This document shows, piece by piece, positions 8,544-20,986 of a stretch of 39,818 nucleotides of DNA (its first letter is position 1; each line of letters begins with the position of its first letter). The notes below the pieces were generated by a model. That model was not told the DNA's origin. It searched no databases and was given only the letters and a program-made list of their open reading frames with translations. Both the position numbers and the translations under genes were made by a program. The DNA comes from Burkholderiaceae bacterium (GTDB lineage: Bacteria > Pseudomonadota > Gammaproteobacteria > Burkholderiales > Burkholderiaceae_B). The stretch lies in NCBI GenBank assembly GCA_017983955.1, contig JAGOAJ010000026.1:1-39818 (forward strand). Direction: 5' to 3'.

Positions 8544-9005
8544 ATGCCCCATTTCAAGTTGGACGAGACCGACAGACACCTACTGACACTACTACAAGCC
8601 AACGCCCGACTACCTACGGCAGAACTGGCACGTAGTTTGAAGTTGGCACGCACCACCGTCGTAGCCCGCATAGCCCGTCTGGAACGCCTGGGCATCATCG
8701 CCGGCTACGGCGTACGCCTGGGTCAAGACCAGGAGCAGGCTGCGGTCCGCGCCTACTGCGGCCTAAGCGTAGGCCCAAAGTCCGGCGCCCATGTCATGCA
8801 ACAATTAGCACGTTTGCCCGAAATCGAAGAGGTATCCGCCGTTAGCGGACAATTCGATTACCTGGTGCTACTGCGCTGCGCATCACACGAACAGCTAGAC
8901 ACCTTGCTTGATCATATAGGCCAGATCGACGGTGTTAATCAAACCCATACATCTATTGTTCTTAGTCGTCGCCTGGACAGACGGCAGGCCGTTAGCGCCC
9001 CATAA
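8544..9005 (+). CDS. Lrp/AsnC family transcriptional regulator
   Basis: 153-residue regulator with an N-terminal winged helix-turn-helix (TAELARSLKLARTTVVARIARLE at about residues 25-47) and a C-terminal RAM ligand-sensing domain (from about residue 65; GQFDYLVLLRC is a typical strand). I chose ATG 8544 over the GTG at 8466 because AAGG lies seven bases upstream and because LDETDRHLLTLLQ is the usual family beginning. It diverges from the catabolic operon starting at 8360 and most likely controls it in response to an amino acid. I could not pick out a convincing operator in the intergenic DNA. Confidence 0.9.
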   Translation: MPHFKLDETDRHLLTLLQANARLPTAELARSLKLARTTVVARIARLERLGIIAGYGVRLGQDQEQAAVRAYCGLSVGPKSGAHVMQQLARLPEIEEVSAVSGQFDYLVLLRCASHEQLDTLLDHIGQIDGVNQTHTSIVLSRRLDRRQAVSAP

Positions 9006-9244: not shown

Positions 9245-10117
9245 TCAGCGCCAGGCGGTTGCAAAAACTCCTGCATGCTGTGTTGTATCGATCAAAGCAT
9301 AAGAGAGCCGTGACGGCCTTCGACTCTTAGAAAAAACAGCCGATGCATCGACTTGTATAACGGGACGGAATGGTATTAGCCTCAGCCCAGGATGCTGGCG
9401 CACATGAGCTATTGCCGAAAACCAATCGACAACCGTGATGCCAACCCCCGCATTTACCAGCAAACATGCTGTCTCCGAGTACCTAACCTCAACGGCTGTT
9501 CTATAAGAAACGCCCTCAGCTTTGAAGGCCGTCCGTATTAAAGGACTCAGACGCGATCCCATCTCTAAACCGATCAACGCATAACTAGAAAGATCACTTG
9601 GGGTTAGAACCGTATGCGCAGACAAGGGATGATCTGAACGGACAAGGCAAACCATTTCCACTGTTGCCACGGGGATCATTTCGAGACTATGGCTAAGCTC
9701 AGCTTCCAATGCTATAGCTAGCCCCACATCTGCTGAACCAGACTCTATTTTCTCTATAACGGTATATGACCGACGCACGTCAAAAAACACCTTAACTTTC
9801 GGTCGTTGTTGCAATAAATGTTGGATCGCCTGGGGTAAAACTGTGTGCCCTAGTTGCGGGGTAGCCACGACCCGAACGTGGCCTAGACGATCCTCTTTTA
9901 GATCTTCTGCAGTTTGCGCCAAAGCTTGCGATAACAAGAAAATTGACTCCGACTCGTGGAACAGAATTCTAGCTTCGTCTCTGGCGACAAGACGGTTGCC
10001 AGCTCGGTCAAAAAGTAAAAAACCGAGCTGAGACTCCAACTGGCGGATCGAACTACTAACCGCTGGCTGGGATATTTGCAGCGCACGCGCTGCGCCTACA
10101 GTGGTGTGGCACTGCAT
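9245..10117 (-). CDS. LysR family regulator, 5'-truncated
   Basis: 290 residues remain of a LysR-type regulator. The recognition part of the helix-turn-helix is present (GAARALQISQPAVSSSIRQLE, residues 8-28), as is the periplasmic-binding-fold effector domain from about residue 80 (VRVVATPQLGHTVLPQAI). LysR proteins normally have about 12 more N-terminal residues forming the first helix. In frame upstream of the ATG only RFV still fits a LysR; beyond it the strand is antisense to amidase sequence and offers no start codon. The gene therefore lost its 5' end and promoter at about 10118. It may be a pseudogene despite the long open frame. Its target was probably the divergent amidase, also truncated. 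Confidence 0.75.
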   Translation of the reverse strand: MQCHTTVGAARALQISQPAVSSSIRQLESQLGFLLFDRAGNRLVARDEARILFHESESIFLLSQALAQTAEDLKEDRLGHVRVVATPQLGHTVLPQAIQHLLQQRPKVKVFFDVRRSYTVIEKIESGSADVGLAIALEAELSHSLEMIPVATVEMVCLVRSDHPLSAHTVLTPSDLSSYALIGLEMGSRLSPLIRTAFKAEGVSYRTAVEVRYSETACLLVNAGVGITVVDWFSAIAHVRQHPGLRLIPFRPVIQVDASAVFSKSRRPSRLSYALIDTTQHAGVFATAWR

Positions 10118-10898
10118 GACAAAACGGGCGGTTCTACTATTAGGCCAGCTGCCTATTGTGGTGTTGTCGGCTACAAACCTAGTTTCGGCCTCATCAATCG
10201 ATCAGGACTGAAGCCGTTAGCAGAGTCACTGGATACTATCGGTATTATGAGTCGCTCGGTCGCAGATACGGCATTACTTATGCACACTCTGGGGGATTTA
10301 CCCACGCCCTTGAATAGTACGAACAGACCTCCGGTGATTGGCTTTTGCCGTACCCCTTTGGCAGGATGTTGATATAGACAGTCGGCATAACCTCGAGTCC
10401 ATTGCAAATCGATTAGCCCTGGCCGGTGCCCGCTTTGATGAAGTCGAGCAGCCTGAAAGTATGGCTAGTCTTTATGACGACCAACGAGCAATCATGAATT
10501 TCGAGGCGTCCCGGGCATTACTATATGAATCTTGCCAGTTTCCCAAGTTGCTCAGCCCCGGCCTGACGAGCCAGTTAAGCAATGGCTGGGACTGTCCTCG
10601 AGCGAACTACGACGCAGCGCAACAGCGAGCTATCATCGCAAGGCGAACATTTGCCAGTTGGACCCAAGGCTATGACGTATTGCTAACGCCAAGTGCCCCG
10701 GGCGCAGCTCCCCTGGGCATTGAAACCGCAGGCAGTTCGATTTTCAATCGAAACTGGTCACTGCTTGGAGCTCCCTGTATCGCGCTACCAAGTGGAAAAA
10801 ACAAAATTGGCTTGCCCTTAGGACTCCAAGTAGTAGGACGATATGGACGCGACGCCGAACTCCTCAGTTGGGCTATTTGGATAGAGTCGGCGATTTAA
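10118..10898 (+). pseudogene. Amidase remnant, 5'-truncated and frameshifted
   Basis: The frame from 10118 encodes TGGSTIRPAAYCGVVGYKPS, the nucleophile-serine block of amidase-signature enzymes, through IGFCRTP. That frame then stops at 10372. The frame starting near 10356 continues as WQDVDID to the C-terminus (GLPLGLQVVGRYGRDAELL), ending at 10898. Removing one T from the TTT run at 10356-10358 joins the frames as RTPWQDVDID. About 170 N-terminal residues are absent, including the catalytic Lys and the cis-Ser, so no active enzyme is possible even without the frameshift. The first codons abut the truncated lysR on the other strand, so one deletion probably removed both 5' ends. Confidence 0.85.
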
Positions 10899-11011: not shown

Positions 11012-11800
11012 TCAAACAAAGCGTGCGCTAATTCGCCCAACCCAGCCAAGGTCCACGGACACCTCATCCCCCGGCGATACAGGTATGGGTTGAATACACG
11101 CCCCTGTAGTCACAAACTGCCCCTGTTTAAGGGGCACTTGGTTTACAGAAAGTTCATTCACTAGCCAACACAGGGCGACGATAGGATCACCCAACACATT
11201 GGCACCGCTACCAACAAATTGGCGCCCGTCGCTGACGGATGCCTTAGTCTGCAAACCGAAAAGCCCTTCAAGCGGCTCTAGGGTAGTGGCAGCAGCGCCC
11301 AAAACCATATCGTTGCTGCAGGCGCAGTCAGCAATAAGCTGAGCGGCACCCGCGTCTTCGAAACTCAGGAAGCGGGAGTCTGGCACCTCGATGCCGGGGT
11401 GTACTGACTCGATCGCCGCAAGGACCTCGTCGCGGGTATACGGGGTAGACCTGGGGGGCAGTGTCTGTCCGATCATAAATACGATCTCGCCTTCGGCCAC
11501 TCTCATTCGATTATCTTGCAATGAAATTTCAGCACCATCAGGTTGTACATTTTCAGCAAAAATCGGCCCTGCCAGGGGACCATCAACGCCAATATGACGC
11601 TGCCCGGCCAAACTGGTAGCAGCGATTTTCCAGCCTGCAATTTCCTGACCCAGCTCATGTGCCCAGAATGCTTGAATGGCATAGCCCTGCTCACGACTCT
11701 GCGGCCGTAGGTCTACTGGCAAGTGGTCCCGATGTTGACCCGTCTTCCAGCATGTGCTTAGATCAACAGCGGCCTGGTCGGCTGCATCAGTTCGGTCCAT
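11012..11800 (-). CDS. 2-oxo-4-pentenoate hydratase-like protein (FAH/MhpD superfamily)
   Basis: 262-residue member of the fumarylacetoacetate-hydrolase superfamily, nearest to 2-hydroxypenta-2,4-dienoate hydratases (MhpD/HpaH/DmpE). These add water to 2-oxo-4-enoic acids to give 4-hydroxy-2-oxo acids. AGWKIAATS near residue 55 and RVAEGEIVFMIG near 100-111 are family motifs; Glu103 and Glu105 should bind the divalent metal. GDPIVALCWLVNEL and FVTTGACIQPIPVSPGDEV near the C-terminus also fit. Start ATG 11800 is chosen because AGGA stands nine bases upstream; a longer frame to 11848 lacks this. It is the last gene of the IclR-module transporter unit, 101 bases after the ATPase gene. A pairing with the DapA-like aldolase is inferred. 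Confidence 0.82.
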   Translation of the reverse strand: MDRTDAADQAAVDLSTCWKTGQHRDHLPVDLRPQSREQGYAIQAFWAHELGQEIAGWKIAATSLAGQRHIGVDGPLAGPIFAENVQPDGAEISLQDNRMRVAEGEIVFMIGQTLPPRSTPYTRDEVLAAIESVHPGIEVPDSRFLSFEDAGAAQLIADCACSNDMVLGAAATTLEPLEGLFGLQTKASVSDGRQFVGSGANVLGDPIVALCWLVNELSVNQVPLKQGQFVTTGACIQPIPVSPGDEVSVDLGWVGRISARFV

Positions 11801-11901
11801 AGACTTTATTCCTGAATATGTATGTGATGTAGCCGATAATAAACGCAAACCTGAAATGCGAGGCCGCCCCGCCTAAAGATGATTTTATTGGAACCCACCC
11901 A

Positions 11902-12708
11902 TCACATTTGATAGCCTTGTTTGAATCTCTTTAGAAAGGCCTGCAGGCGTTCAGATTGAGGATTTTCGAAAATCTGTTCGGGTGGACCCTGCTCGATAAT
12001 TTCCCCATTGGCCATAAAAATAACTCGATCCGCGAAAGCACGAGCAAAGGCCATTTCATGCGTCACTATCATCATTGTCATGCCATCTTGAACCAGTTGC
12101 CGCATCACGTCCAAAACCTCGCCTACCAGCTCAGGGTCCAAAGCGGATGTGACTTCATCAAATAACATAGCTTTAGGTTGCATAGCCAAGGAACGCGCTA
12201 TCGCCACCCGCTGCTGCTGCCCTCCTGATAACTGCCCTGGCAACGCATTTGCCTTGCTCGCTAACCCAACTTGCTCCAACAAAACAGCCGCACGCTCTTC
12301 TGCTTCACGCTTGGGAAGTGCAAGAGCTTTTATTGGCCCCAATGCAACGTTCTGTAAGACACTCATGTGAGGAAACAGATTGAAGCTCTGAAAAACCATA
12401 CCAACTTGCGCTCGCATGGCTGCAATTTCAGTTTCCGAGCGCCTAGAGCGGACCCCATGCGCATCAACCCGATAGCCCATGGCCTCGCCGTCAATGGTAA
12501 TTTCCCCAGCCTGAAACTCTTCCAGAAGATTTACACAACGCAATAGCGTGGTCTTACCCGAACCACTAGGACCGATTATGACAATTGCTTCGCCTTGCTT
12601 AACCTCGGTTGAAATATCTTTTAAAACTTGATGTGTTCCAAACCATTTGGACAGGTTCTTTATTTCAATCGCTACCTTTCCAGCATCAGGATGTATATTA
12701 GTTGACAT
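11902..12708 (-). CDS. Amino-acid ABC transporter ATP-binding protein
   Basis: 268-residue GlnQ-type ATPase. Walker [10 protein letters not shown]-loop QSFNLFPHM, signature [14 protein letters not shown] and Walker B AMLFDE are all present, with an ATSALDP-like D-loop ([11 protein letters not shown]) and the H-loop [11 protein letters not shown] 12708 (MSTNIH) is preferred to the longer frame from 12765: AAGGCGG lies upstream and the start overlaps the end of the permease gene by 11 bases, as is common in such operons. It works with the permeases at 12698 and 13342 and, by inference, with the binding protein at 19879, which sits in another transcription unit. Confidence 0.92.
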
Positions 12709-13342
12709 AACCAAACCGCCTTTCCAAGTACTGCCCCAATCGAGACAACAAGAAGCAAATAACAAAATACACTAATGCGACAAAGCCGAATATTTCAAAT
12801 GGCGCCAACGTTCGCTCTACAATCTGTCGCCCGATATAGGTCAAGTCAGTCAGACCAATAATAGCCACAAGAGATGTTCCCTTTACCACCCCAATACAGG
12901 TATTGATGTAGGGCGGTCCAGCGACACGCATAGCCTGTTGAAGCACTATATTTACAAGAACTTTCCTTGGTGTAAGACCAATAGACTTCCCAGCCTCCCA
13001 CTGACCAGTTGGTACTGACAACACTGCGCCACGAAAAACCTCTGTCATAAACGCCCCAAAATAGGCGGCGATTACCACCACGCCCCCAGTGAGCGGATCA
13101 ATCTCCACACCTGCATACGGCGCGGCGTAATACATCGTGAACAAAAGAACCAGCAAAGGCACGCCGCGTATGATGTATAAATAGATCTCTACTGCAGTTC
13201 TTAGCAGCATCCCACCATACAACTGGAAAAGAGCAAAAATAAAACCAGAGATTGTTGCAAGCACAATAGCGAAAAACGATAAGTAAAGAGTGGTGAGTGT
13301 GCCCCGAACAATCAACGGAAGGCTAATAATTATTAATTCCAT
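12698..13342 (-). CDS. Amino-acid ABC transporter permease
   Basis: 214-residue inner-membrane permease with about five transmembrane segments. It contains [22 protein letters not shown] near residues 58-79 and the EAA loop [30 protein letters not shown] near 115-144. Its ATG shares one base with the stop of the upstream permease gene (TAATG), so the pair is coupled and probably forms a heterodimeric channel. Base composition is noticeably AT-rich compared with the flanking core genes. Confidence 0.9.
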
Positions 13343-13995
13343 TAGCTAATCCTCATACGGCTTTCTATTAGTCGCATCACGCCCCCAAAAATGGCTGTAA
13401 GAACAATATAAAAGAGAGCAAGCGTGAAAAATATTTCGAATACTGCAGCAGTTTGGTCCGCCATCATCCGAGCATGAAACGTCAGCTCTCCTACCGATAT
13501 TGTGGCCACTAACGACGTATCTTTAATAATTAAAATGCCTTGATTCGATAGTGGAGGAATCACTTTCCTAAGAGCTTGGGGCAGCACAATAATCCGAAAA
13601 GCACGTCGCGGGGTCAGACCCACGGCTAAGGCTGCTTCCGTTTGCTTGACAGAAACAGATTGGATTCCACCTCGATAAATCTCGGCCATGTAAGCACCGT
13701 TTTGCAGAACCATGGCAAGCAAGCCAGTCACAAAACCAGAAAGAGGATAGCCCAAGGTTCCCGAGCCAAAAAAAATAAAAAACATCTGCACAAGAACTGG
13801 GGTATTCCGAACAACTTCAACATAGGCTACTGCAAGACGAGATACCAACCTGCTCCTGGAGAGCAACGCCATTACTATCGGCACTCCCCACAAAGCAGAG
13901 AGTACGGTGGCCAATACAGCAAGCAACACCGTCGTTAACAGCCCGTCGGCCAGCGTTGAAACAATGCGGACGAAAAAGACATGATCCAAAGACAT
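13342..13995 (-). CDS. Amino-acid ABC transporter permease
   Basis: 217-residue permease, partner of the one at 12698. The EAA loop is TEAALAVGLTPRRAFRIIVLPQALRKVIPP, and EVVRNTPVLVQMFFIFFGSG is the conserved stretch before it. Start ATG 13995 (MSLDHVFF) is preferred to the TTG at 14013, which has no ribosome-binding site. The ATG itself has only a weak AAGAAA, but it lies four bases after the stop of a 41-codon small ORF with a strong site, so translational coupling is likely. Together with the downstream permease and ATPase it forms an amino-acid importer whose binding protein gene is at 19879. Confidence 0.9.
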   Translation of the reverse strand: MSLDHVFFVRIVSTLADGLLTTVLLAVLATVLSALWGVPIVMALLSRSRLVSRLAVAYVEVVRNTPVLVQMFFIFFGSGTLGYPLSGFVTGLLAMVLQNGAYMAEIYRGGIQSVSVKQTEAALAVGLTPRRAFRIIVLPQALRKVIPPLSNQGILIIKDTSLVATISVGELTFHARMMADQTAAVFEIFFTLALFYIVLTAIFGGVMRLIESRMRIS

Positions 13996-13999
13996 TTTC

Positions 14000-14125
14000 T
14001 TAAACCACTTCAATAGTTAGGAAGTGGCGCACTGGCGATACTCTGTGTGCAGCACGTTCTGAGAAAAAACGAAACGTAAGTGCGGCTATCTTTCTATAGG
14101 CTCTATTTAACTTATATTTATTCAT
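14000..14125 (-). CDS. 41-residue small ORF coupled to the permease gene
   Basis: ATG 14125 is preceded by GGAGGAG with a six-base gap, the strongest ribosome-binding site in this region. The frame encodes 41 basic residues beginning MNKYKLNRAYRKIAALTF and stops at 14000, four bases before the permease ATG. The operator core at 14156 is 31 bases upstream of this ATG, nearly the same spacing as at the binding-protein gene (32 bases), which supports it as the first translated gene of the unit. No family is recognised, and there is no transmembrane stretch or run of regulatory codons. It may serve as a leader that delivers ribosomes to the permease, or be a true small protein. Confidence 0.55.
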   Translation of the reverse strand: MNKYKLNRAYRKIAALTFRFFSERAAHRVSPVRHFLTIEVV

Positions 14126-14150
14126 ACGTAGCTCCTCCGTTACCCTGTAC

Positions 14151-14175
14151 AATAATTCCGAAATACGGAATTATT
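14151..14175. promoter_or_regulatory. Operator dyad between the transporter unit and iclR
   Basis: AATAATTCCG (14151-14160) and CGGAATTATT (14166-14175) are perfect 10-bp arms around AAATA. The core TTCCG-N5-CGGAA recurs at 20774-20788 before the binding-protein gene. Location between the divergent iclR and permease units, and symmetry typical of IclR-family operators, make it the likely binding site of the adjacent IclR protein. A possible iclR -10 (TATAAG, 14185-14190) would place the -35 within the dyad, consistent with autoregulation. Confidence 0.75.
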
Positions 14176-14237
14176 TGTTCTATTTATAAGATATTTTTTG
14201 CTTCAAAAGGGCAATTAATTATCATGACACTCACACA

Positions 14238-15020
14238 ATGACTAAAACTCTTCTCGCCACATCAACAGAACAGCCGCTGGATCGGGCTATAGCAATCCTT
14301 AACGCCTTGGCTACGTCAGCGCGGGCAATGTCTGTCACAGAGCTTGCAACGGCTTGCGAGCTGCCGGTAACTACCGTGCACAGAATGGCCAGCCAGCTAG
14401 AAAAACGTGACTTAATAAAACGCATGATAGGGTCTAAAAAATTCATTGTCGGCCCAAGCCTTGTACGCTTAGGCAATGCGGCAACTGAAGCCGCGATGCG
14501 TTCTGATCGTCCCCACCAAATCCTAATAGCTCTGGCAAACGAAGTTGGTGAGTCTTGCCAAATTGGTGTGCGCTCCGACGACGAAGTCGTATACATCGAC
14601 AACGCACGAACCGCCCCGGCTCCAGGGTTACACTTCGAACAAGGTAGACGGTCACCAATACACTGCACATCTATCGGCAAGTTATATCTAGCAGAGATGA
14701 AAAAAGAGGAGTTCGACTGGTGGCTTAGCAGTGCTACCCTGCCTCGACTTACTCCAAACACCTTGGCATCAAAACAAAAACTCAGCGCTGCAATTGAAGA
14801 TGTTCGCAACATGGGCTGGGCTTCCAATAATGAGGAGTTTCTTCCAGGGCTTGTAGGATGTGCAGTACCTATACGTTTATCTAACGGCAAGCTACTGGCT
14901 TGTATAGGCTTATATGTACCCACCGCACGAATATCGTTCGATCGCATCAAGGATTTTCTCCCACCATTAAGAGCCGCCGCTGAAAAAATCGCTACTATCG
15001 CTGAAGGCAAACCAGAGTAG
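14238..15020 (+). CDS. IclR family transcriptional regulator
   Basis: 260-residue IclR-type regulator. The N-terminal winged helix-turn-helix spans about residues 12-70 (LDRAIAILNALA, then MSVTELATACELPVTTVHRM). The C-terminal effector domain contains SCQIGVRSDDEVVYIDNA and PIHCTSIGKLYLA, both typical. The ribosome-binding site is weak. It is divergent from the transporter unit, with the 25-base dyad between them, and convergent with the DapA-like gene six bases away. It most likely represses, or activates with ligand, both minus-strand units that carry the TTCCG-N5-CGGAA site. Confidence 0.92.
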   Translation: MTKTLLATSTEQPLDRAIAILNALATSARAMSVTELATACELPVTTVHRMASQLEKRDLIKRMIGSKKFIVGPSLVRLGNAATEAAMRSDRPHQILIALANEVGESCQIGVRSDDEVVYIDNARTAPAPGLHFEQGRRSPIHCTSIGKLYLAEMKKEEFDWWLSSATLPRLTPNTLASKQKLSAAIEDVRNMGWASNNEEFLPGLVGCAVPIRLSNGKLLACIGLYVPTARISFDRIKDFLPPLRAAAEKIATIAEGKPE

Positions 15021-15026
15021 TACTGA

Positions 15027-15902
15027 TCAAGTTACTGGAAGCAGGTGCTCTAAGCGTTCACGTGTACCGATAGACGGAGCATAAATAGGTGCTCGCGTTG
15101 ACCCTGCATTCCGACCAACCATCTGCAGGGCAAGCTTCAACGGACCTGGATTAGGCTCACCATAAATCGCACGACATAGGGGCATTATCTCCAGCTGGAT
15201 GCGCTGAGCCCGCGTTATGTCGCCTGTCTGAAATGCATCGTACAGATCACACAACAGCCTTGGAACCAGACAGCCCAGCGAAAATACCGCGCCGTGCCCC
15301 CCAAGGGCCAACGTTGGAAGAAAGCACTCTTCATACCCCTGTAGTACGCTAAACTCGGGTGGTGCCTCACGCAAGAGCTCGGCGACAAGCGCCATATCAC
15401 TTGAGCTTTCCTTGATAGCAATAAACAGCGGAATGTCTTTCAATAGGCCAAGTATGGCATCCGCCCCAAGTCTTACCCCACTCCTTTTAGGACTATGAAA
15501 TAACATCATAGGCATACCGACACGATCTGCTATCGTCTGGAAATGCTGCCTTGTATGTGATGTATCCATTCCAAAAAAGCAAGGTGGCATTACCATAATC
15601 ACATCGGCGCCGGCCGCCTTTGCATGATTGGCGCACTCAATAATGTCGGCTTGGCTACCTAACAAAGTCCCTACCACTACGGGCACCCGACCCGCCACCT
15701 CTTCTACCACAAGATCAATAATTTGCTTATGTTCTGTAAGCGTTAGTGAAAGCGGCTCACCTGTACCACCAAGCGGGCATAACCCAGCGATCCCTTGTTG
15801 CAATTGAAATCGCACGCTCTCGCGCATAGCTAGCTTATCCAGTTGGCCATCAACGTCAAAAGTGGTGACTAAGGCTGTCATCACGCCACTAAGCGCCCTC
15901 AT
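15027..15902 (-). CDS. DapA-family aldolase/lyase (DHDPS superfamily)
   Basis: 291-residue Schiff-base aldolase of the dihydrodipicolinate-synthase superfamily. The lysine is in IAIKESSSD and the substrate-loop motif is GGTGEPLSL, where DapA has GTTGE. The DapA tyrosine of the LYNVPxRTG motif is replaced: here it reads LFHSPKRSG, so this is not a lysine-pathway DapA. Relatives cleave or join pyruvate and aldehydes. ATG 15902 is chosen because it overlaps the stop of the threonine-aldolase-like gene as ATGA; a longer frame to 15932 would overlap more. It is the last gene of the enzyme unit. Cleavage of the hydratase product to pyruvate plus an aldehyde is inferred. Confidence 0.85.
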   Translation of the reverse strand: MRALSGVMTALVTTFDVDGQLDKLAMRESVRFQLQQGIAGLCPLGGTGEPLSLTLTEHKQIIDLVVEEVAGRVPVVVGTLLGSQADIIECANHAKAAGADVIMVMPPCFFGMDTSHTRQHFQTIADRVGMPMMLFHSPKRSGVRLGADAILGLLKDIPLFIAIKESSSDMALVAELLREAPPEFSVLQGYEECFLPTLALGGHGAVFSLGCLVPRLLCDLYDAFQTGDITRAQRIQLEIMPLCRAIYGEPNPGPLKLALQMVGRNAGSTRAPIYAPSIGTRERLEHLLPVT

Positions 15903-16948
15903 GTCACTGACTCTGTGGTGGTGACTCGACAAATTTCCAGCACCTGGTCAATCTCCTCGTCTGAGGTGAACCATGACATAACGAAACGGTGGTGTTTAGG
16001 TCTAGGGCGCCATCCTTGTTGAAACTTACAGCCGGCATTTACAAGCGCCTCGGTCATTACATCTGGCATCGAGACAAAGACCTCATTTCCTTGAGTAGGA
16101 TGGACTAGTGTTACGCCCTCAAGTGCTATCAAACCACTAGATAACCGCAACGCTGCCCGATTTGCATGAACAGCATTTTTTCGCCAAAGGTCATCATCTA
16201 AATAAGCCAAGACCTGGGCTGCCAAAAAGCGGCTTTTGGGCGCCAAGTGACCACTACGTTTACGCAAGTACCCTAGTTCGGTATTGTATTTAGGTGTAAA
16301 TGACACAATAGTTTCGACCCCGTAAGATCCACTTTTTGTCGTCCCCAAGGTAAGCACCTCAACTCCAGCCTTCCAAGATAGCTCTGCTGGTGTCGCGCCA
16401 ATAGATACAACCGCATTTGCGAAGCGTGCGCCATCTAGATGAACGCCCAACTTATATTTGTGCGCGATTTTTGTTAATGTAGCTAACTGATCTGGGTTGT
16501 AAGCTGTCCCCGCCTCCGTTAAGTTAGTTAAACTCAACACTGATGGTTGAACTGCATGCACCACCCCTATCCGAGCCTCGGACAAGCCGATCTCCAATGC
16601 TTCAGGAGAAAGGCGGCCGTGCTCTCCAGGAAACAGAACTTGCCTTGCACCCGCCGAGAACATTTCTGGAGCCCCACACTCATCAGTCACAGTATGCGCA
16701 TCTGAATGACACAAAATTGAGCCATAGCGCGGCACCATGGCACCAAGGGCAATGCCATTAGCCGCTGTTCCTGTTGAAACCGAGAACGCCCATAGGTCAT
16801 CCGTTTCAAAGAAGGCCCGTAACTGCACCAACGAGCGCTCGGTCCAGCCCTCTGATTCAAAATTCGTCGCATACCCCTTATTGGCAGACACAAGAGCCTC
16901 TACAAAAGCAGGATGTACCGGTGACGTATTCTCAGATCCAAAATCCAT
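15899..16948 (-). CDS. Threonine aldolase/beta-eliminating lyase family PLP enzyme
   Basis: 349-residue fold-type I PLP enzyme similar to low-specificity threonine aldolases, which split beta-hydroxy-alpha-amino acids into glycine and an aldehyde. It opens MDFGSENTSPVHP, has FSVSTGTAANGIAL for cofactor phosphate contact, GVHLDGARFANA with the PLP-ring aspartate, and LGTTKSGSYGVE with the Schiff-base lysine. These features are intact. GGGG lies eight bases before its ATG. It sits between the DUF35 gene and the DapA-like gene, overlapping the latter by four bases. This is the clearest clue that the imported substrate or an intermediate is a beta-hydroxy amino acid. Confidence 0.85.
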   Translation of the reverse strand: MDFGSENTSPVHPAFVEALVSANKGYATNFESEGWTERSLVQLRAFFETDDLWAFSVSTGTAANGIALGAMVPRYGSILCHSDAHTVTDECGAPEMFSAGARQVLFPGEHGRLSPEALEIGLSEARIGVVHAVQPSVLSLTNLTEAGTAYNPDQLATLTKIAHKYKLGVHLDGARFANAVVSIGATPAELSWKAGVEVLTLGTTKSGSYGVETIVSFTPKYNTELGYLRKRSGHLAPKSRFLAAQVLAYLDDDLWRKNAVHANRAALRLSSGLIALEGVTLVHPTQGNEVFVSMPDVMTEALVNAGCKFQQGWRPRPKHHRFVMSWFTSDEEIDQVLEICRVTTTESVT

Positions 16949-16983
16949 AACAGTTACCCCAGACTAATAGTGACGCTTCACAT

Positions 16984-17391
16984 TCACACAAGTTGAAAGG
17001 ACAGTACTTTTTGCTTTACTCCTCGATCATCAAATATTGCTTGTACGGAGCGATTAATCAACGAAGTCCCACAAGTAGGTGCCCCCTGCATCTGCCCATA
17101 AACTAAAACTCCTTCCGTAAGTTCTATCGCCGCAAAAACATAAGGAATCTCACCACCAAAGCCATCATGATGGGGGCGATGAACCGTTGTATGAGAGATC
17201 ACTTTCCCGTGCCCTGACGCAGACAACCATTCAAGGCCAGCACCATGACAAAACGGACAGCACACCCTGGGATAAAAAACCATACGTCCACAGGTCTCAT
17301 CCAGGCAACGCTGCAGGTGGATATGTCCCTCGTTCAGGCCATCCCAGAATTGTTGGCTAATTTCATTTACACGAGGTTCTGGCTTATTCAT
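16984..17391 (-). CDS. DUF35 zinc-ribbon/OB-fold protein, thiolase partner
   Basis: 135-residue protein of the DUF35 (ChsH2-like) family. A zinc-ribbon cysteine set lies at Cys29, Cys34, Cys44/45 and Cys48 (QRCLDETC, then CCPFC), followed by an OB-fold (GHGKVISHTTVHRP, then VFAAIELTEGVLVYGQM). Such proteins bind a thiolase-fold subunit and help hold acyl-CoA. The start has AAGG about seven bases upstream. It is 15 bases after the thiolase-like gene, the standard pairing. It is not an enzyme by itself. Confidence 0.88.
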   Translation of the reverse strand: MNKPEPRVNEISQQFWDGLNEGHIHLQRCLDETCGRMVFYPRVCCPFCHGAGLEWLSASGHGKVISHTTVHRPHHDGFGGEIPYVFAAIELTEGVLVYGQMQGAPTCGTSLINRSVQAIFDDRGVKQKVLSFQLV

Positions 17392-17406
17392 TCAGTCACC
17401 TTTAAG

Positions 17407-18567
17407 TTATTGAACTCGTTCTAAGATCGCCGCACTGGAGGAAAGTCCGCGGCCATAGGCCACCATGCCGTAGCCAGAAACAACACCACGTTCACACTTG
17501 ACCTGTCGCTTGCCTGCCCTACCTAACAACTGCGTAACCCCTTCAACCACACCTATCATTCCGCCTGAAGCTCCCGCTTGACCCGCCGACAGCTGCCCAC
17601 CACCCGTGTTAACTGGCAAACCACCATCTACTGTTATGCCTTTCTGCTGTATAAAACGCCCACTCGTGCCTGGTGGACAAAACTGAAGCCCTTCAAGCTG
17701 AATAAATGACATTACCGGGTAGTCGTCATATACCTGTGCAAAATGTAAGTCTGTAGGTCTACAGCCTGCCCGCTCATACAAGCGCTCTGAAAATCCTTCC
17801 CATCCACCCGGCAAGCCATACACATCGTTTGCGGGATAATTGTGAATTTCTTCTGAGGCGAGAATACGCAAGCTAGGTCCTGGCAAGGTGCTGGCTATCT
17901 TTTCAGAAACCAACACAATCGCATCCCCGCCTACACACGGCATTACGCAATCGTACAAACGTAATGGGTCAGCAATCTGGCGGGCCGTAAGATACGCTTC
18001 CATGGTTAATGGTTCGCTAAACAGCGCATTGGGATTGCGCAAGGCATTCTCCCTTAATGCAATACAAAACCGACCAAAATCTTCCGCCGTCGCGCCATAT
18101 CGCTCCATATATAAACGTGTATGGAGTGCAAACATACCGTTTGCCCCACCAAACCCCTGAGGAGACATGTAGTCACGAACCGACGTATTGAAGTGATCTA
18201 GCGTCGCATTATGAGAGGCAACATCGAACGCATCAGCTGCCGCGCATACAACAACATCACATGCTCCATCACGAATCGCCCGAGCGGCATGAGCCATGCC
18301 AATAATCCCAGAAGCGCCACCATAGACACCCTGAAACATGAACCTAGCCTCGACACCAAAGTGCTCGGCCACCACTGCTACGTTATCAGGCGGCAGCATA
18401 AAAGAAGTGACTGCCAGCCCATTAACACTGCTCCAAGGAAGCCCCGCGTCAGCTAGAGCAGCGGACGCTGCTTTATAGAGCAACCTATTGACCCCATCAG
18501 TTGAACGCTTCGCGTAAACCGTCTGGCCCGCGCCTACAACGCGCACCCCTTCAAAATTGGCACCCAA
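17407..18567 (-). CDS. Thiolase-fold protein (SCPx/Ltp2 type) without the nucleophilic cysteine
   Basis: 386-residue thiolase-superfamily protein of the lipid-transfer/SCPx branch. The position of the usual nucleophile (CASG) reads GASG at residues 84-87, and no second catalytic Cys is seen in the C-terminal GYGMVAYG region. VYDDYP (Tyr280, Tyr283) and NTGGGQLSAG (320-329) replace the usual His and Cys blocks. Cysteine-less relatives paired with DUF35, such as Ltp2-ChsH2, are CoA-ester retro-aldolases. The start is TTG at 18567, directly after the CoA-transferase stop and preceded by AGGGGGGTG; no usable ATG is nearby. A retro-aldol or related C-C cleavage on a CoA ester is inferred. Confidence 0.85.
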   Translation of the reverse strand: MGANFEGVRVVGAGQTVYAKRSTDGVNRLLYKAASAALADAGLPWSSVNGLAVTSFMLPPDNVAVVAEHFGVEARFMFQGVYGGASGIIGMAHAARAIRDGACDVVVCAAADAFDVASHNATLDHFNTSVRDYMSPQGFGGANGMFALHTRLYMERYGATAEDFGRFCIALRENALRNPNALFSEPLTMEAYLTARQIADPLRLYDCVMPCVGGDAIVLVSEKIASTLPGPSLRILASEEIHNYPANDVYGLPGGWEGFSERLYERAGCRPTDLHFAQVYDDYPVMSFIQLEGLQFCPPGTSGRFIQQKGITVDGGLPVNTGGGQLSAGQAGASGGMIGVVEGVTQLLGRAGKRQVKCERGVVSGYGMVAYGRGLSSSAAILERVQ

Positions 18568-19806
18568 TTAAATCACCCCCCTGGAGCTCAGTTCAGTAAA
18601 TTGCTGATCCGTCATTCCTAGCTCGTCCCTATAAACAGCTTGACTATCAGCTCCAAGCGCGCGTCCAGCGTGACGAACCTCACCTGGAGTGCCGCTAAAC
18701 TTTGGCACAACGTTTTGCATACGCACAGATCCAAAATCATCATCGGGGACGTCGACAATATTCTTTCGTGCCTGATAATGTGGGTCCTTAAAAATGTCAG
18801 CGATATCGATAACAGGACCCGCAACAACCTCTTGTTTCTCAAACAATGCCATCACGTCGTTAATGTCTTGTTGCGCAAACCACTTGGCTAACATCTCATC
18901 CAAAGCTTGGTCATTAACGCAGCGCAACGCGTTATCGGTGAAACGAGGATCAGTTACTAGCTCTGGCATATCCATTGCGTTCACCAAACGTTCGTAGGTG
19001 CGCTGTGAGCTAGCAGAAATACCTATCCAAGTACCGTCACGAGTCTGATATGTATTTCGCGGTGAGTCCTCAGCCAGGCGATTTCCTTGCCGCTGCTTAA
19101 CAATACCCAATTGGTCGTAGCCAATTACTTGGGCCTCAACCAATCTAAACAGCGGTTCATACAGGCTCACATCAACCTCTTGCCCTTTTCCACCGTTATG
19201 ATCTCGGTTATAGATTGCAAACATTGCGGACATCGCGGCAAATGTTGCGGCGACCGAATCAGCCATTGGGAAGCCAGGTAACGTCGGTGGACGATCAGGG
19301 AATCCCGTGAAGGACGGCACCCCAGAAAAGGCTTCCGCAATCGTTCCGTATCCCCCACGCTTCGAATACGGTCCTGTTTGGCCAAATCCAGATACACGAA
19401 CCATGACCAAACCCGGATTGATTTTGGACAGCTCTTCATAACTGAGCCCCCAACGCTCGAACGTTCCGGGTTTGTAGTTCTCTATTAAGATATCTGCGCT
19501 ACGAATTAGGTCTCGAAAAATCTCCTGGCCTTCAACGTCAGAAAGTTTAAGAGTGACAAGGCGTTTGTTACGGCCTATAACTTTCCACCATAAAGAGCGG
19601 TCCTCTTTAATAGGAGCCCACTGCCGAATAGAGTCGCCTATACCTGGCATTTCTATTTTTATGACATCCGCTCCAAAATCCGCCAGCTGAGTTGCCGCCA
19701 AGGGCCCTGCAATCATCGTCCCAGCATCAATGACTCGCATACCTTTTAATGGTCCATTCCTATTCGAGGTATCAGCACCTTGTGACTGCCGTCCTTGTTC
19801 ATTCAT
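18568..19806 (-). CDS. CaiB/BaiF (class III) CoA-transferase
   Basis: 412-residue class III CoA-transferase. MRVIDAGTMIAGPLAATQLADFGADVIKIE (from residue 23) is the family start, and the catalytic Asp is most likely Asp183 in GFPMADSVAA. GGKGQEVDVSLYEPLF follows as usual. It moves CoA between carboxylic acids, so it would activate the acid later handled by the thiolase-DUF35 pair. ATG 19806 has AGGAG nine bases upstream. It is the second gene of the enzyme unit, 72 bases after the binding-protein gene and directly abutting the thiolase gene. Confidence 0.92.
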   Translation of the reverse strand: MNEQGRQSQGADTSNRNGPLKGMRVIDAGTMIAGPLAATQLADFGADVIKIEMPGIGDSIRQWAPIKEDRSLWWKVIGRNKRLVTLKLSDVEGQEIFRDLIRSADILIENYKPGTFERWGLSYEELSKINPGLVMVRVSGFGQTGPYSKRGGYGTIAEAFSGVPSFTGFPDRPPTLPGFPMADSVAATFAAMSAMFAIYNRDHNGGKGQEVDVSLYEPLFRLVEAQVIGYDQLGIVKQRQGNRLAEDSPRNTYQTRDGTWIGISASSQRTYERLVNAMDMPELVTDPRFTDNALRCVNDQALDEMLAKWFAQQDINDVMALFEKQEVVAGPVIDIADIFKDPHYQARKNIVDVPDDDFGSVRMQNVVPKFSGTPGEVRHAGRALGADSQAVYRDELGMTDQQFTELSSRGVI

Positions 19807-19835
19807 CCTGCATTGCTCCTAACGGGATTTAGAGT

Positions 19836-19879
19836 GGTGTTGGTGTTATAGGTAAGAATAAAAAAGCAGTGCCAACACC
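19836..19879 (-). other. mRNA hairpin at the 3' end of the binding-protein gene
   Basis: GGTGTTGG (19836-19843) and CCAACACC (19872-19879) are 8-bp inverted arms spanning the gap between the binding-protein stop and the CoA-transferase gene. There is no T-tract after the stem on the minus strand, so it is more likely an mRNA-stabilising or partial-attenuation element than a full terminator. The 28-base loop makes it modest evidence. Confidence 0.3.
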
Positions 19880-20742
19880 TACTTTGTGCCTGGGTGATAA
19901 AAACGCTGTGGCGGTGGTGTACGTCCGAACCATTTTTGGTAAATTTCAGCATATTCGTTGTAGCGAGACCCGGCGGTCATCTCCTGCACCATTGTGTCCA
20001 TCCACAACCACAACTCGAAGTCCCCGGGCTTCATAAAAAGCGCATTGCCAGCGGTGACCGTCAGGGGTTCTGACAGGACTTTCATTTCTTTGTTATTAAG
20101 TGCGTACCAATCCAGAACGGGTGTATCCATCTGCATAGCTTGTGCTTGCCCAGACTTCACCGCCAAGAATTGACTGCTGGGTGTGTCAAATGTCAGAACT
20201 TTTATATTTGGAAGAAAACGTTTCTGACGATCAAGCATTTGAGGATTGCTCAAATTGGCTAAAGTGAAGTCCTTGTTGTTTAGGGCCTCCAAGCTATCTA
20301 CGTTGGTATCACGGCGAACAGCAATAGACATTCCAGAATCGACATAAGGCCGCGTAAAAGCCACGCGGGTGGCACGATCCGGATATACCGTTGTCGATGC
20401 CAATCCTATATCCGCGCGACCAGAGGCTACTGCCGGCCACCGACCTTCACTAGTCACGGCAATAAATTCCACTTTTTTCTCGTCCCCCAATAAGGACTTC
20501 CCGATCAGGCGTGCGAGATCAATATCAAACCCCACCAGTTCGCCTTTCTCATCCGTAAATCCAAAGGGTGGTGCGGTACTGAATGTCGCGACTATGAGCT
20601 TGTCACGTTTGATAATGGTTTGTAAACGCGAGTCCGTCTGAGAGGCTTGAGCCAACGCAGAACCCGTGGTAGATGCCAGCAGTCCAAAAAACACCAGCAC
20701 GAATAAGATAGCTCGATGCAGATAGCGAAATAACTTTCTCAT
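19879..20742 (-). CDS. ABC transporter amino-acid-binding protein (SBP_bac_3)
   Basis: 287-residue periplasmic binding protein. A Sec signal peptide (MRKLFRYLHRAILFVLVFFG, cleavage near ALA-QA) precedes KLIVATFSTAPPFGFTDEKGELVGFDIDLARLIG, the typical lobe 1 start, and ADIGLASTTVYPDRATRVAFTRPY. ATG 20742 is firm: AGGAG lies eight bases upstream, while a longer frame to 20952 has no such site and runs through the operator. It is the first gene of the enzyme unit, and the permeases and ATPase are at 11902-13995. Its promoter carries the same dyad as the transporter unit, which ties the two together. Confidence 0.92.
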   Translation of the reverse strand: MRKLFRYLHRAILFVLVFFGLLASTTGSALAQASQTDSRLQTIIKRDKLIVATFSTAPPFGFTDEKGELVGFDIDLARLIGKSLLGDEKKVEFIAVTSEGRWPAVASGRADIGLASTTVYPDRATRVAFTRPYVDSGMSIAVRRDTNVDSLEALNNKDFTLANLSNPQMLDRQKRFLPNIKVLTFDTPSSQFLAVKSGQAQAMQMDTPVLDWYALNNKEMKVLSEPLTVTAGNALFMKPGDFELWLWMDTMVQEMTAGSRYNEYAEIYQKWFGRTPPPQRFYHPGTK

Positions 20743-20773
20743 GATTTGTCTCCTGATGAGATTTATAATTAAC

Positions 20774-20788
20774 TTCCGAATATCGGAA
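20774..20788. promoter_or_regulatory. Second copy of the IclR-type operator
   Basis: TTCCG (20774-20778), AATAT, CGGAA (20784-20788). It lies 32 bases upstream of the binding-protein ATG and shares arm sequence and spacer length with the dyad at 14151-14175. The flanks match less well than at the first site. I infer it is bound by the IclR protein at 14238. Confidence 0.7.
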
Positions 20789-20986
20789 ATTTTTATCTCA
20801 TAAAGTGGATTATCCATATTGGCTATTAAGTAGGCAATAAGTATTAACGCTAGGTCCGTTTGGCATGCACCCAACCACTGTTCGCCGAGTACCGATGCCA
20901 CGTCCATTATCATTGGGACAACGGCTGCAGATTTAACCCTGCCAACCCACAAGCCACCCTCAAAAATCCGTTTGAATAACTACAAA

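Follow-up and report, generated by a model that had tools for sequence, protein, structure and literature searches.

The operators of IclR-family regulators have been surveyed across 181 ortholog groups (Suvorova and Gelfand 2021, PMC8222616). That survey describes group-1 sites as GKTYCRYW3-4RYGRAMC, with a subgroup WTTYCRYW3RYGRAAW (WTT-11-AAW), places the site centres mostly 20-80 nt before the start codon, reports, for 94 ortholog groups, tandem sites separated by 18-22 nt, and names HisJM-GlnQ transporter genes among the co-regulated genes. BhcR of Paracoccus denitrificans has been argued to be a dual regulator (PMC11323563). Here we analyze a stretch of 39,818 nucleotides from a Burkholderiaceae bacterium (assembly GCA_017983955.1, contig JAGOAJ010000026.1, positions 1 to 39,818), referred to as the window, in which two copies of the palindrome TTCCG-N5-CGGAA precede two minus-strand gene units, with an IclR-family gene located between both units. 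No publication on this gene cluster was found in the open-licence literature, as judged by titles and abstract openings.

Comparison of related genomes makes it probable that the two palindromes are operators of this IclR protein, and that both units and its own gene form one regulon repressed through tandem-dyad operators. Both sites fit the subgroup consensus WTTYCRYW3RYGRAAW, apart from one or two peripheral or spacer-edge positions (compared by eye).

Position, rarity, and conservation of the palindromes

A preliminary description of this DNA, made from its letters alone, had placed the two palindromes at the positions listed here, the first within perfect 10-bp arms and beside an IclR gene. 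Both sites were confirmed, and the regulator gene was borne out by its two domains.

14156..14170, no strand assigned: main dyad of the proposed operator at site 1, TTCCGAAATACGGAA, between iclR and the permease unit; relatives' versions in 9/9 genomes
20774..20788, no strand assigned: main dyad of the proposed operator at site 2, TTCCGAATATCGGAA, before the binding-protein unit
14238..15020, plus strand: IclR-family regulator; Pfam HTH_IclR at 50 bits and IclR_C at 119.5 bits, both above the curated cut-offs

The arms at site 1 span 14151-14160 and 14166-14175, and those at site 2 are 9 nt long and 89% complementary. The start of iclR lies 68 nt from site 1, and its end is six bases from the end of the DapA-like gene that closes the second unit. 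The minus-strand unit behind site 1 encodes a pair of permeases together with an ATPase and an FAA-hydrolase-fold protein. Behind site 2, the unit, likewise on the minus strand, comprises a binding protein, a coenzyme A (CoA)-transferase, a thiolase-fold protein, a ChsH2-type OB protein, a pyridoxal phosphate (PLP) lyase, and the DapA-family protein.

The assembly holding the window (3,321,284 bases, 62 contigs, 94% complete) contains three matches to TTCCG-N5-CGGAA, of which just the two in the window have an A/T spacer; the third (C25:22989) has a GC-rich spacer and lies under mechanically called open reading frames (ORFs) on both strands. The A/T-spacer pattern TTCCRWWWWWYGGAA occurs twice in this genome, against none for its reversed control. 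We give a chance resemblance of the two palindromes a vanishingly small probability. It would agree with the 5+5 core being no rarer in this genome than its reversed-pattern control (3 versus 8), so that the two sites stand out because of their A/T spacer and not through the core by itself; but the window holds two copies where 0.02 are expected, two copies arose in 0/100 dinucleotide shuffles, and both position and sequence are conserved in nine other genomes.

At up to one mismatch, TTCCRWWWWWYGGAA was found at 11 places in the same genome, compared with 14 for the control. Of the one-mismatch relatives of the motif in this genome (68 places, 50 of them listed), the analysis covered those with an A/T spacer. 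Eight of the nine non-exact A/T-spacer places fall under long ORFs and the ninth (C43:29294) is intergenic, beside an IclR gene; the motif is thus not common in unrelated intergenic DNA, a check that the preliminary description had proposed, and none of the nine places suggests a third regulon member. The intergenic place is a near-dyad, ATCCATTAAATGGAA (positions 1501-1515 of locus L090), situated about 70 nt from another IclR gene and preceding an ORF that resembles short-chain dehydrogenases (named by eye). A further dyad-like stretch, TCCCACTATTTGGGA, was seen by eye about 22 nt from it.

Relatives of the IclR protein were searched for among 150 relatives, in 268 genomes of the family (at most nine candidates scored per genome, so that the resulting count is a lower bound), and with a 10-row profile in 50 chosen genomes. 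Close relatives were obtained from nine other genomes, with identities of 74, 71, 53, 53, 52, 51, 51, 50, and 39%, and the flanks of all nine were taken; the contig of one, G210, stops at 4,855 bases. A dyad heads an importer or enzyme unit in 9/9 of these genomes, at 11 sites in total: one is an exact TTCCG-N5-CGGAA, nine have one mismatch, and one (in G028) has two. With the window included, this gives 13 sites in 10 genomes of five genera, every one heading a unit and lying next to a close IclR relative.

The gene arrangement around these sites differs between lineages. Two genomes of the genus labeled g25, G025 and G059, repeat the split seen in the window, with one site before the permease and one before the binding protein; identity to the window's versions is 78-84% for the binding protein, CoA-transferase, thiolase, permeases, and ATPase. 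Five genomes of genus g4 have a single site before a CoA-transferase and thiolase (73-76% identity to the window's), and the importer behind these is less similar (ATPase 51-54%, permeases 24-35%, binding protein 23-25% identity); in G186, the one of the five annotated here, a class-V aminotransferase precedes the importer. In G028, one site is followed by a row made up of the CoA-transferase, thiolase, OB protein, binding protein, both permeases, and the ATPase; in G210, the binding protein adjoins a permease. Both G186 and G028 have a class-V aminotransferase as their PLP enzyme instead of the PLP lyase of the window.

That the halves separated in the window form a single set is best supported by this row behind one site in G028. 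The gene order in G028 and G210 supports the earlier proposal that the halves make up one importer, and the retention of the dyad in orthologous clusters of 9/9 other genomes, a further check that had been suggested, lends support to co-regulation of the two units around this IclR protein, the sites accompanying close relatives of its gene in 10/10 genomes. The specificity of the A/T-spacer pattern points the same way in part of the sample. Four of these genomes (G025, G059, G028, and G210) each contain one exact TTCCRWWWWWYGGAA in the whole genome, at the site of the orthologous cluster, and in these four and the genome of the window, 6/6 exact A/T-spacer dyads lie within the cluster; the pattern misses sites with a T-to-A change, for example the binding-protein sites of G025 and G059. 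The existence of the sites is thus demonstrated, as are their positions, their rarity, and their conservation together with this IclR gene, and, on sequence grounds, the reading of the locus as a small IclR regulon is well supported.

Proposed operator architecture and mode of regulation

In an alignment of the 13 sites with lineages weighted, twelve columns are invariant: T0, C2, C3, T9, G11, G12, A13, and A14 in the dyad and, beyond its limits, T-12, A-8, A-5, and T+16. Within 75 nt, the best offset for a second dyad is exactly 22 nt upstream (z 4.27 among offsets, a score that gives no probability, the sequences being related). The elements identified around the main dyads are as follows.

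14178..14192, minus strand: candidate second (distal) dyad of site 1, ATCTTATAAATAGAA; strongly degenerate, with the right half alone resembling YGRAA
20796..20810, minus strand: candidate second (distal) dyad of site 2, ATCCACTTTATGAGA; centre 22 nt upstream
20809..20837, minus strand: candidate promoter TTGCCT-N17-GATAAT; overlaps the distal dyad of site 2 and lies 21 nt before the main dyad
14000..14125, minus strand: 41-codon leader ORF after GGAGGAG, a strong ribosome-binding sequence; its stop lies 4 nt before the permease ATG

The distal dyad is clear in genus g4 (ATCCA-ATTAG-TGAAA), fair at site 2 of the window (ATCCA-CTTTA-TGAGA), and reads ATCCG-ATTAA-TAAGA before the binding protein in genus g25. 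The two promoter regions within G025 and within G059 are alike at 73% and 83%, respectively, over the 30 nt before the dyad, and at 20% and 35% over the next 40 nt, the pattern expected if the split of the operon was accompanied by copying of this segment, or by its retention through selection. Hexamers similar to those of the candidate promoter (TTGACC/TTGCGC/TTGCGG and CAAAAT) were recognized by eye at the corresponding position of both G025 and G059. On the predicted promoter, the operator dyads at site 2 would lie at and just after the start of transcription, which favors repression.

With the same regulon and the same operators, the IclR protein might instead be an activator or a dual regulator that activates the units and represses itself, a possibility that we consider rather unlikely. 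PobR/PcaU-type IclR proteins have an activator or dual role, and the curated models closest to the protein of the window are BhcR, its best NCBIfam match (157.5 bits, with a cut-off of 350), and PcaR/PcaU/PobR (144.9 bits, with a cut-off of 284.75), both far below cut-off; the dual role argued for BhcR (PMC11323563) would agree with such an assignment. The geometry argues the other way: the operator at site 2 is placed between the candidate promoter and the start codon, not upstream of the promoter, and in the window, as in G025 and G059, some 27-32 nt lie between the dyad and a start codon.

At site 1, this distance leads to a leader ORF. The distances of 31 and 32 bases from the sites to the first start codons, given in the preliminary description, are both right, but the start codon at 31 bases (14125) opens the 41-codon leader and not the permease, whose likely ATG (13995) lies 161 nt away from the dyad. 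The permease of G025 and G059 has its ATG directly behind the operator instead, about 30 nt from the dyad and after GAGGAG, so that the window carries some 130 extra bases at this place. The leader DNA (14005-14155) had no match in 60 other genomes, save for 27 nt in G114 that were taken as chance. Translational coupling of the leader to the permease is possible, but this is a guess.

The palindromes could also act as RNA, as a leader hairpin that terminates or attenuates transcription. On either strand, hairpins are predicted for the two window sites and for the G186 site (-6.0 to -11.6 kcal/mol, z -2.0 to -3.4), and terminator-like matches occur on the plus strand at both window sites. Against this, a plus-strand terminator at site 2 would serve no gene, as there is no plus-strand ORF of at least 100 amino acids between iclR and that site; the half-sites vary without compensation (TTCCA..CGGAA in g4 and G059, TACCG..CGGAA in G025/G059), as would be expected of a dyad bound by protein; and the conserved T-12 and A-8 lie outside the stem. 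We therefore set the hairpin reading aside, on account of the uncompensated half-site changes and the conserved bases beyond the stem, and regard it as very improbable.

For the repressor reading, we infer binding, tandem occupancy, repression, and induction as follows. The IclR protein would control its own gene and both halves of the regulon: behind site 1, the permeases, ATPase, and hydratase, and behind site 2, the binding protein, the CoA-transferase, the thiolase-fold protein with its OB partner, the PLP lyase, and the DapA-like protein. Each operator is probably a pair of tandem dyads 22 nt apart, to which two dimers would bind from the same side of the helix. As long as no inducer is present, the protein would cover the start of transcription and block it, and the imported compound or its product would release it from the DNA.

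The same dyad class beside other IclR genes

Several findings weigh against this assignment. Three concern the operator structure. The distal dyad is poor at site 1 of the window and in G028 and G210, with the right half alone present in the latter two. The window's own two sites are alike at 43% over the 30 nt before the dyad and 25% beyond, a likeness that over 70 nt does not exceed that of shuffles (575 of 2000), and so do not repeat the pattern of G025 and G059. The promoter match at site 2 (1 found, with 1.2 expected by chance) is weak alone and carries weight only because of the similar hexamers in G025/G059, and no candidate promoter was found on the minus strand at site 1.

Gene content and weaker relatives add to these points. 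For the hydratase, the PLP lyase, and the DapA-like gene, tblastn (E 1e-3) gave no match in the nine flanks, so that they are placed in the regulon solely from their position in the window; they are either additions in the lineage of the window or are located elsewhere in the relatives. Five weaker IclR matches (33-41% identity, in G047, G137, G074, G004, and G080) lack both an A/T-spacer dyad and the other cluster genes within the 3.7 kb examined, three of the five having dyads with a GC spacer or one mismatch only. They were left out of the ortholog set, although that of G047 (41%) is nominally nearer than that of G210 (39%). The near-dyad TTCCGGATTCCGGGA is present in G047, 42 nt before its weaker iclR match. 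Our confidence in the repressor regulon is lowered because of these three genes lacking in related clusters and these weaker matches without dyads.

The pattern is also shared with other regulators. TTCCRWWWWWYGGAA was matched in 140/268 genomes of the family, showing that the dyad class is not confined to the regulator of the window. In genus g4, an IclR-family ORF is present in 27 of the 30 matching loci (stretches of at most 3 kb, one per genome, many of them mutually orthologous and two on short contigs), and in just 3 of these 27 is it the window's regulator; four longer stretches besides these have an IclR-family ORF in two cases. G001, the other genome of the window's genus among those searched, in which the profile search found no close IclR relative, has two A/T-spacer dyads, one beside another IclR-family ORF and one within a 1.3-kb open frame. 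The one A/T-spacer dyad in the whole genome of G047 is beside another IclR gene, and in G187 TTCCGAATATTGGAA occurs exactly, beside a different IclR gene, no close relative of the window's protein having been found there. The dyad therefore marks IclR proteins generally, and the sequence alone names no binder.

These shared dyads would allow the two sites to be true IclR-class operators with one or both bound by another IclR paralogue. Such cross-regulation, with which the one-mismatch dyad about 70 nt from the L090 IclR gene of the same genome would also agree, seems improbable to us: the sites accompany this IclR gene in 10/10 genomes of five genera, and four of these genomes outside genus g4 have no other exact A/T-spacer dyad.

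Within genus g4 (loci L055-L084), several IclR genes were observed beside TTCCRWWWWWYGGAA dyads that differ in the spacer, namely TTCCATAAAACGGAA, TTCCATATAACGGAA, TTCCGTATATTGGAA, and TTCCATTATTTGGAA. These spacer variants constitute a natural set for studying how paralogues avoid cross-talk.

Distant relatives were obtained from 74 plasmid records, the best with 42.5% identity, and four of the 74 were opened; their dyad scans were compared with mononucleotide shuffles (n=300). A Paracoccus plasmid (L109) has a full TTYCR-N5-YGRAA dyad at 8930 before the iclR gene of the 42% relative (0/300 shuffles as good) and a one-mismatch dyad at 9822 before a unit of an aminotransferase and an amino acid importer (15/300). 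The class-V aminotransferase of G186 is 55% identical to the one beside this 42% relative and importer. Two regions of a Methylobacterium plasmid are within chance (181 and 138 of 300), one GC-rich one-mismatch dyad there having 6/300, and the one-mismatch dyads of the Mesorhizobium and Rhizobium plasmids were equalled by 61 and 32 of 300 shuffles, respectively. The plasmid dyads were not counted as support for the operator reading. A further contig scan with the IclR protein gave 15 loci of 23-27% identity, mostly Streptomyces; none was close and none was used.

Gene content, origin, and comparison with described systems

The genes of the two units are listed in the order of transcription, first those behind site 1 and then those behind site 2.

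13342..13995, minus strand: ATP-binding cassette (ABC) permease A, amino-acid type; Pfam BPD_transp_1, and NCBIfam HEQRo_perm_3TM above cut-off (scanned from the longer 14013 start)
12698..13342, minus strand: ABC permease B, an ORF assigned by homology only; 79% identical to its G025/G059 counterpart, and cross-matching permease A at 33-35%
11902..12765, minus strand: ABC transporter ATPase, HisP/GlnQ type; start probably the ATG at 12708
11012..11848, minus strand: FAA-hydrolase-fold protein related to 2-keto-4-pentenoate hydratases, by domain and family profiles
19879..20742, minus strand: periplasmic binding protein SBP_bac_3 (Pfam), first gene of the second unit
18568..19806, minus strand: family III CoA-transferase (Pfam)
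17407..18567, minus strand: thiolase-fold protein; nearest solved relatives are the "lipid-transfer proteins" 9myr and 6ok1
16984..17391, minus strand: zinc-ribbon/OB-fold (ChsH2-type) partner protein (Pfam)
15899..16948, minus strand: PLP-dependent beta-eliminating lyase or threonine-aldolase-like protein, by domain and family profiles
15027..15932, minus strand: DapA-family aldolase/synthase; 204.4 bits, just below the DapA cut-off of 206.15

The domain matches agree with the permeases, ATPase, and hydratase that had been predicted behind site 1, the hydratase being a relative with the FAA-hydrolase fold. Behind site 2, where a binding protein and five enzymes had been named, the binding protein and four enzyme-like genes stand, and the fifth is the small zinc-ribbon/OB-fold protein. 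The make-up of a family-3 amino-acid ABC importer is present, with SBP_bac_3, the HEQRo-type permease, and a cognate ATPase, permease B being included through homology. Among the matches listed (for the ATPase, the best 25 of 191), none of the binding protein, permease A, and the ATPase reached an equivalog cut-off. The thiolase-fold protein with its ChsH2-type partner suggests a predicted cleavage of a CoA-activated acid, retro-aldol or thiolytic; 6ok1 is the steroid side-chain aldolase Ltp2.

We propose only tentatively, and hold it somewhat doubtful as a whole, that the locus is an undescribed catabolic regulon with a 37-bp operator of four half-sites (ATCCR-N5-TRARA-N7-TTCCR-N5-YGGAA), which would serve the uptake of an amino-acid-like compound and its breakdown via the CoA-transferase and the thiolase-fold enzyme with its ChsH2-type partner. 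The operator-promoter would have been copied when the operon was split, so that one regulator kept both halves, and a translated leader ORF would then have been inserted between operator and permease in the genome of the window. The locus would neatly illustrate how an operator is retained in two copies once an operon has been split, and would be an example of an importer whose binding protein and permeases, in different units, are tied into one regulon. The regulator, the two operators, and the gene set together offer a handle for finding the substrate, as the ligand that frees this IclR protein from the DNA is probably the compound taken up or something made from it at an early stage.

The cluster (11012-20742) has a GC content of 49%, compared with 55% in the rest of the window. 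From this difference, and from the lack of a close IclR relative in G001, horizontal gain of the cluster is possible. An ORF at 10338-10898 on the plus strand matches only the C-terminal part of the Amidase family (profile positions 247-445 of 445) and looks like a truncated amidase remnant, because only about 220 bases separate it from a LysR gene.

As in family-3 amino-acid ABC importers, the window encodes an SBP_bac_3 protein, a HEQRo-type permease, a second permease, and a HisP/GlnQ-type ATPase; unlike in those, the binding protein and the permeases are in separate units with six genes between them, five of the second unit and iclR. The protein encoded at 17407-18567 has its best matches in the lipid-transfer proteins 9myr and 6ok1 and shares with them a ChsH2-type neighbor gene, whereas in the window the thiolase-fold gene sits with a CoA-transferase and an importer. 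The window differs from the BhcR system in having two units, not one, and its genes are not the bhcABCD set. It shares with the BhcR system an IclR protein divergent from the controlled operon and a putative palindrome in the shared intergenic region (PMC11323563). With the group-1 operators of the IclR survey (PMC8222616), it shares the palindrome type, the A/T-rich spacer, the distance to the start codon, and the small regulon, and its candidate 22-nt offset is within the 18-22 nt given there for tandem sites. The mechanism itself is well known; what is new here is the candidate tandem dyad, the leader ORF, and the putative pathway.

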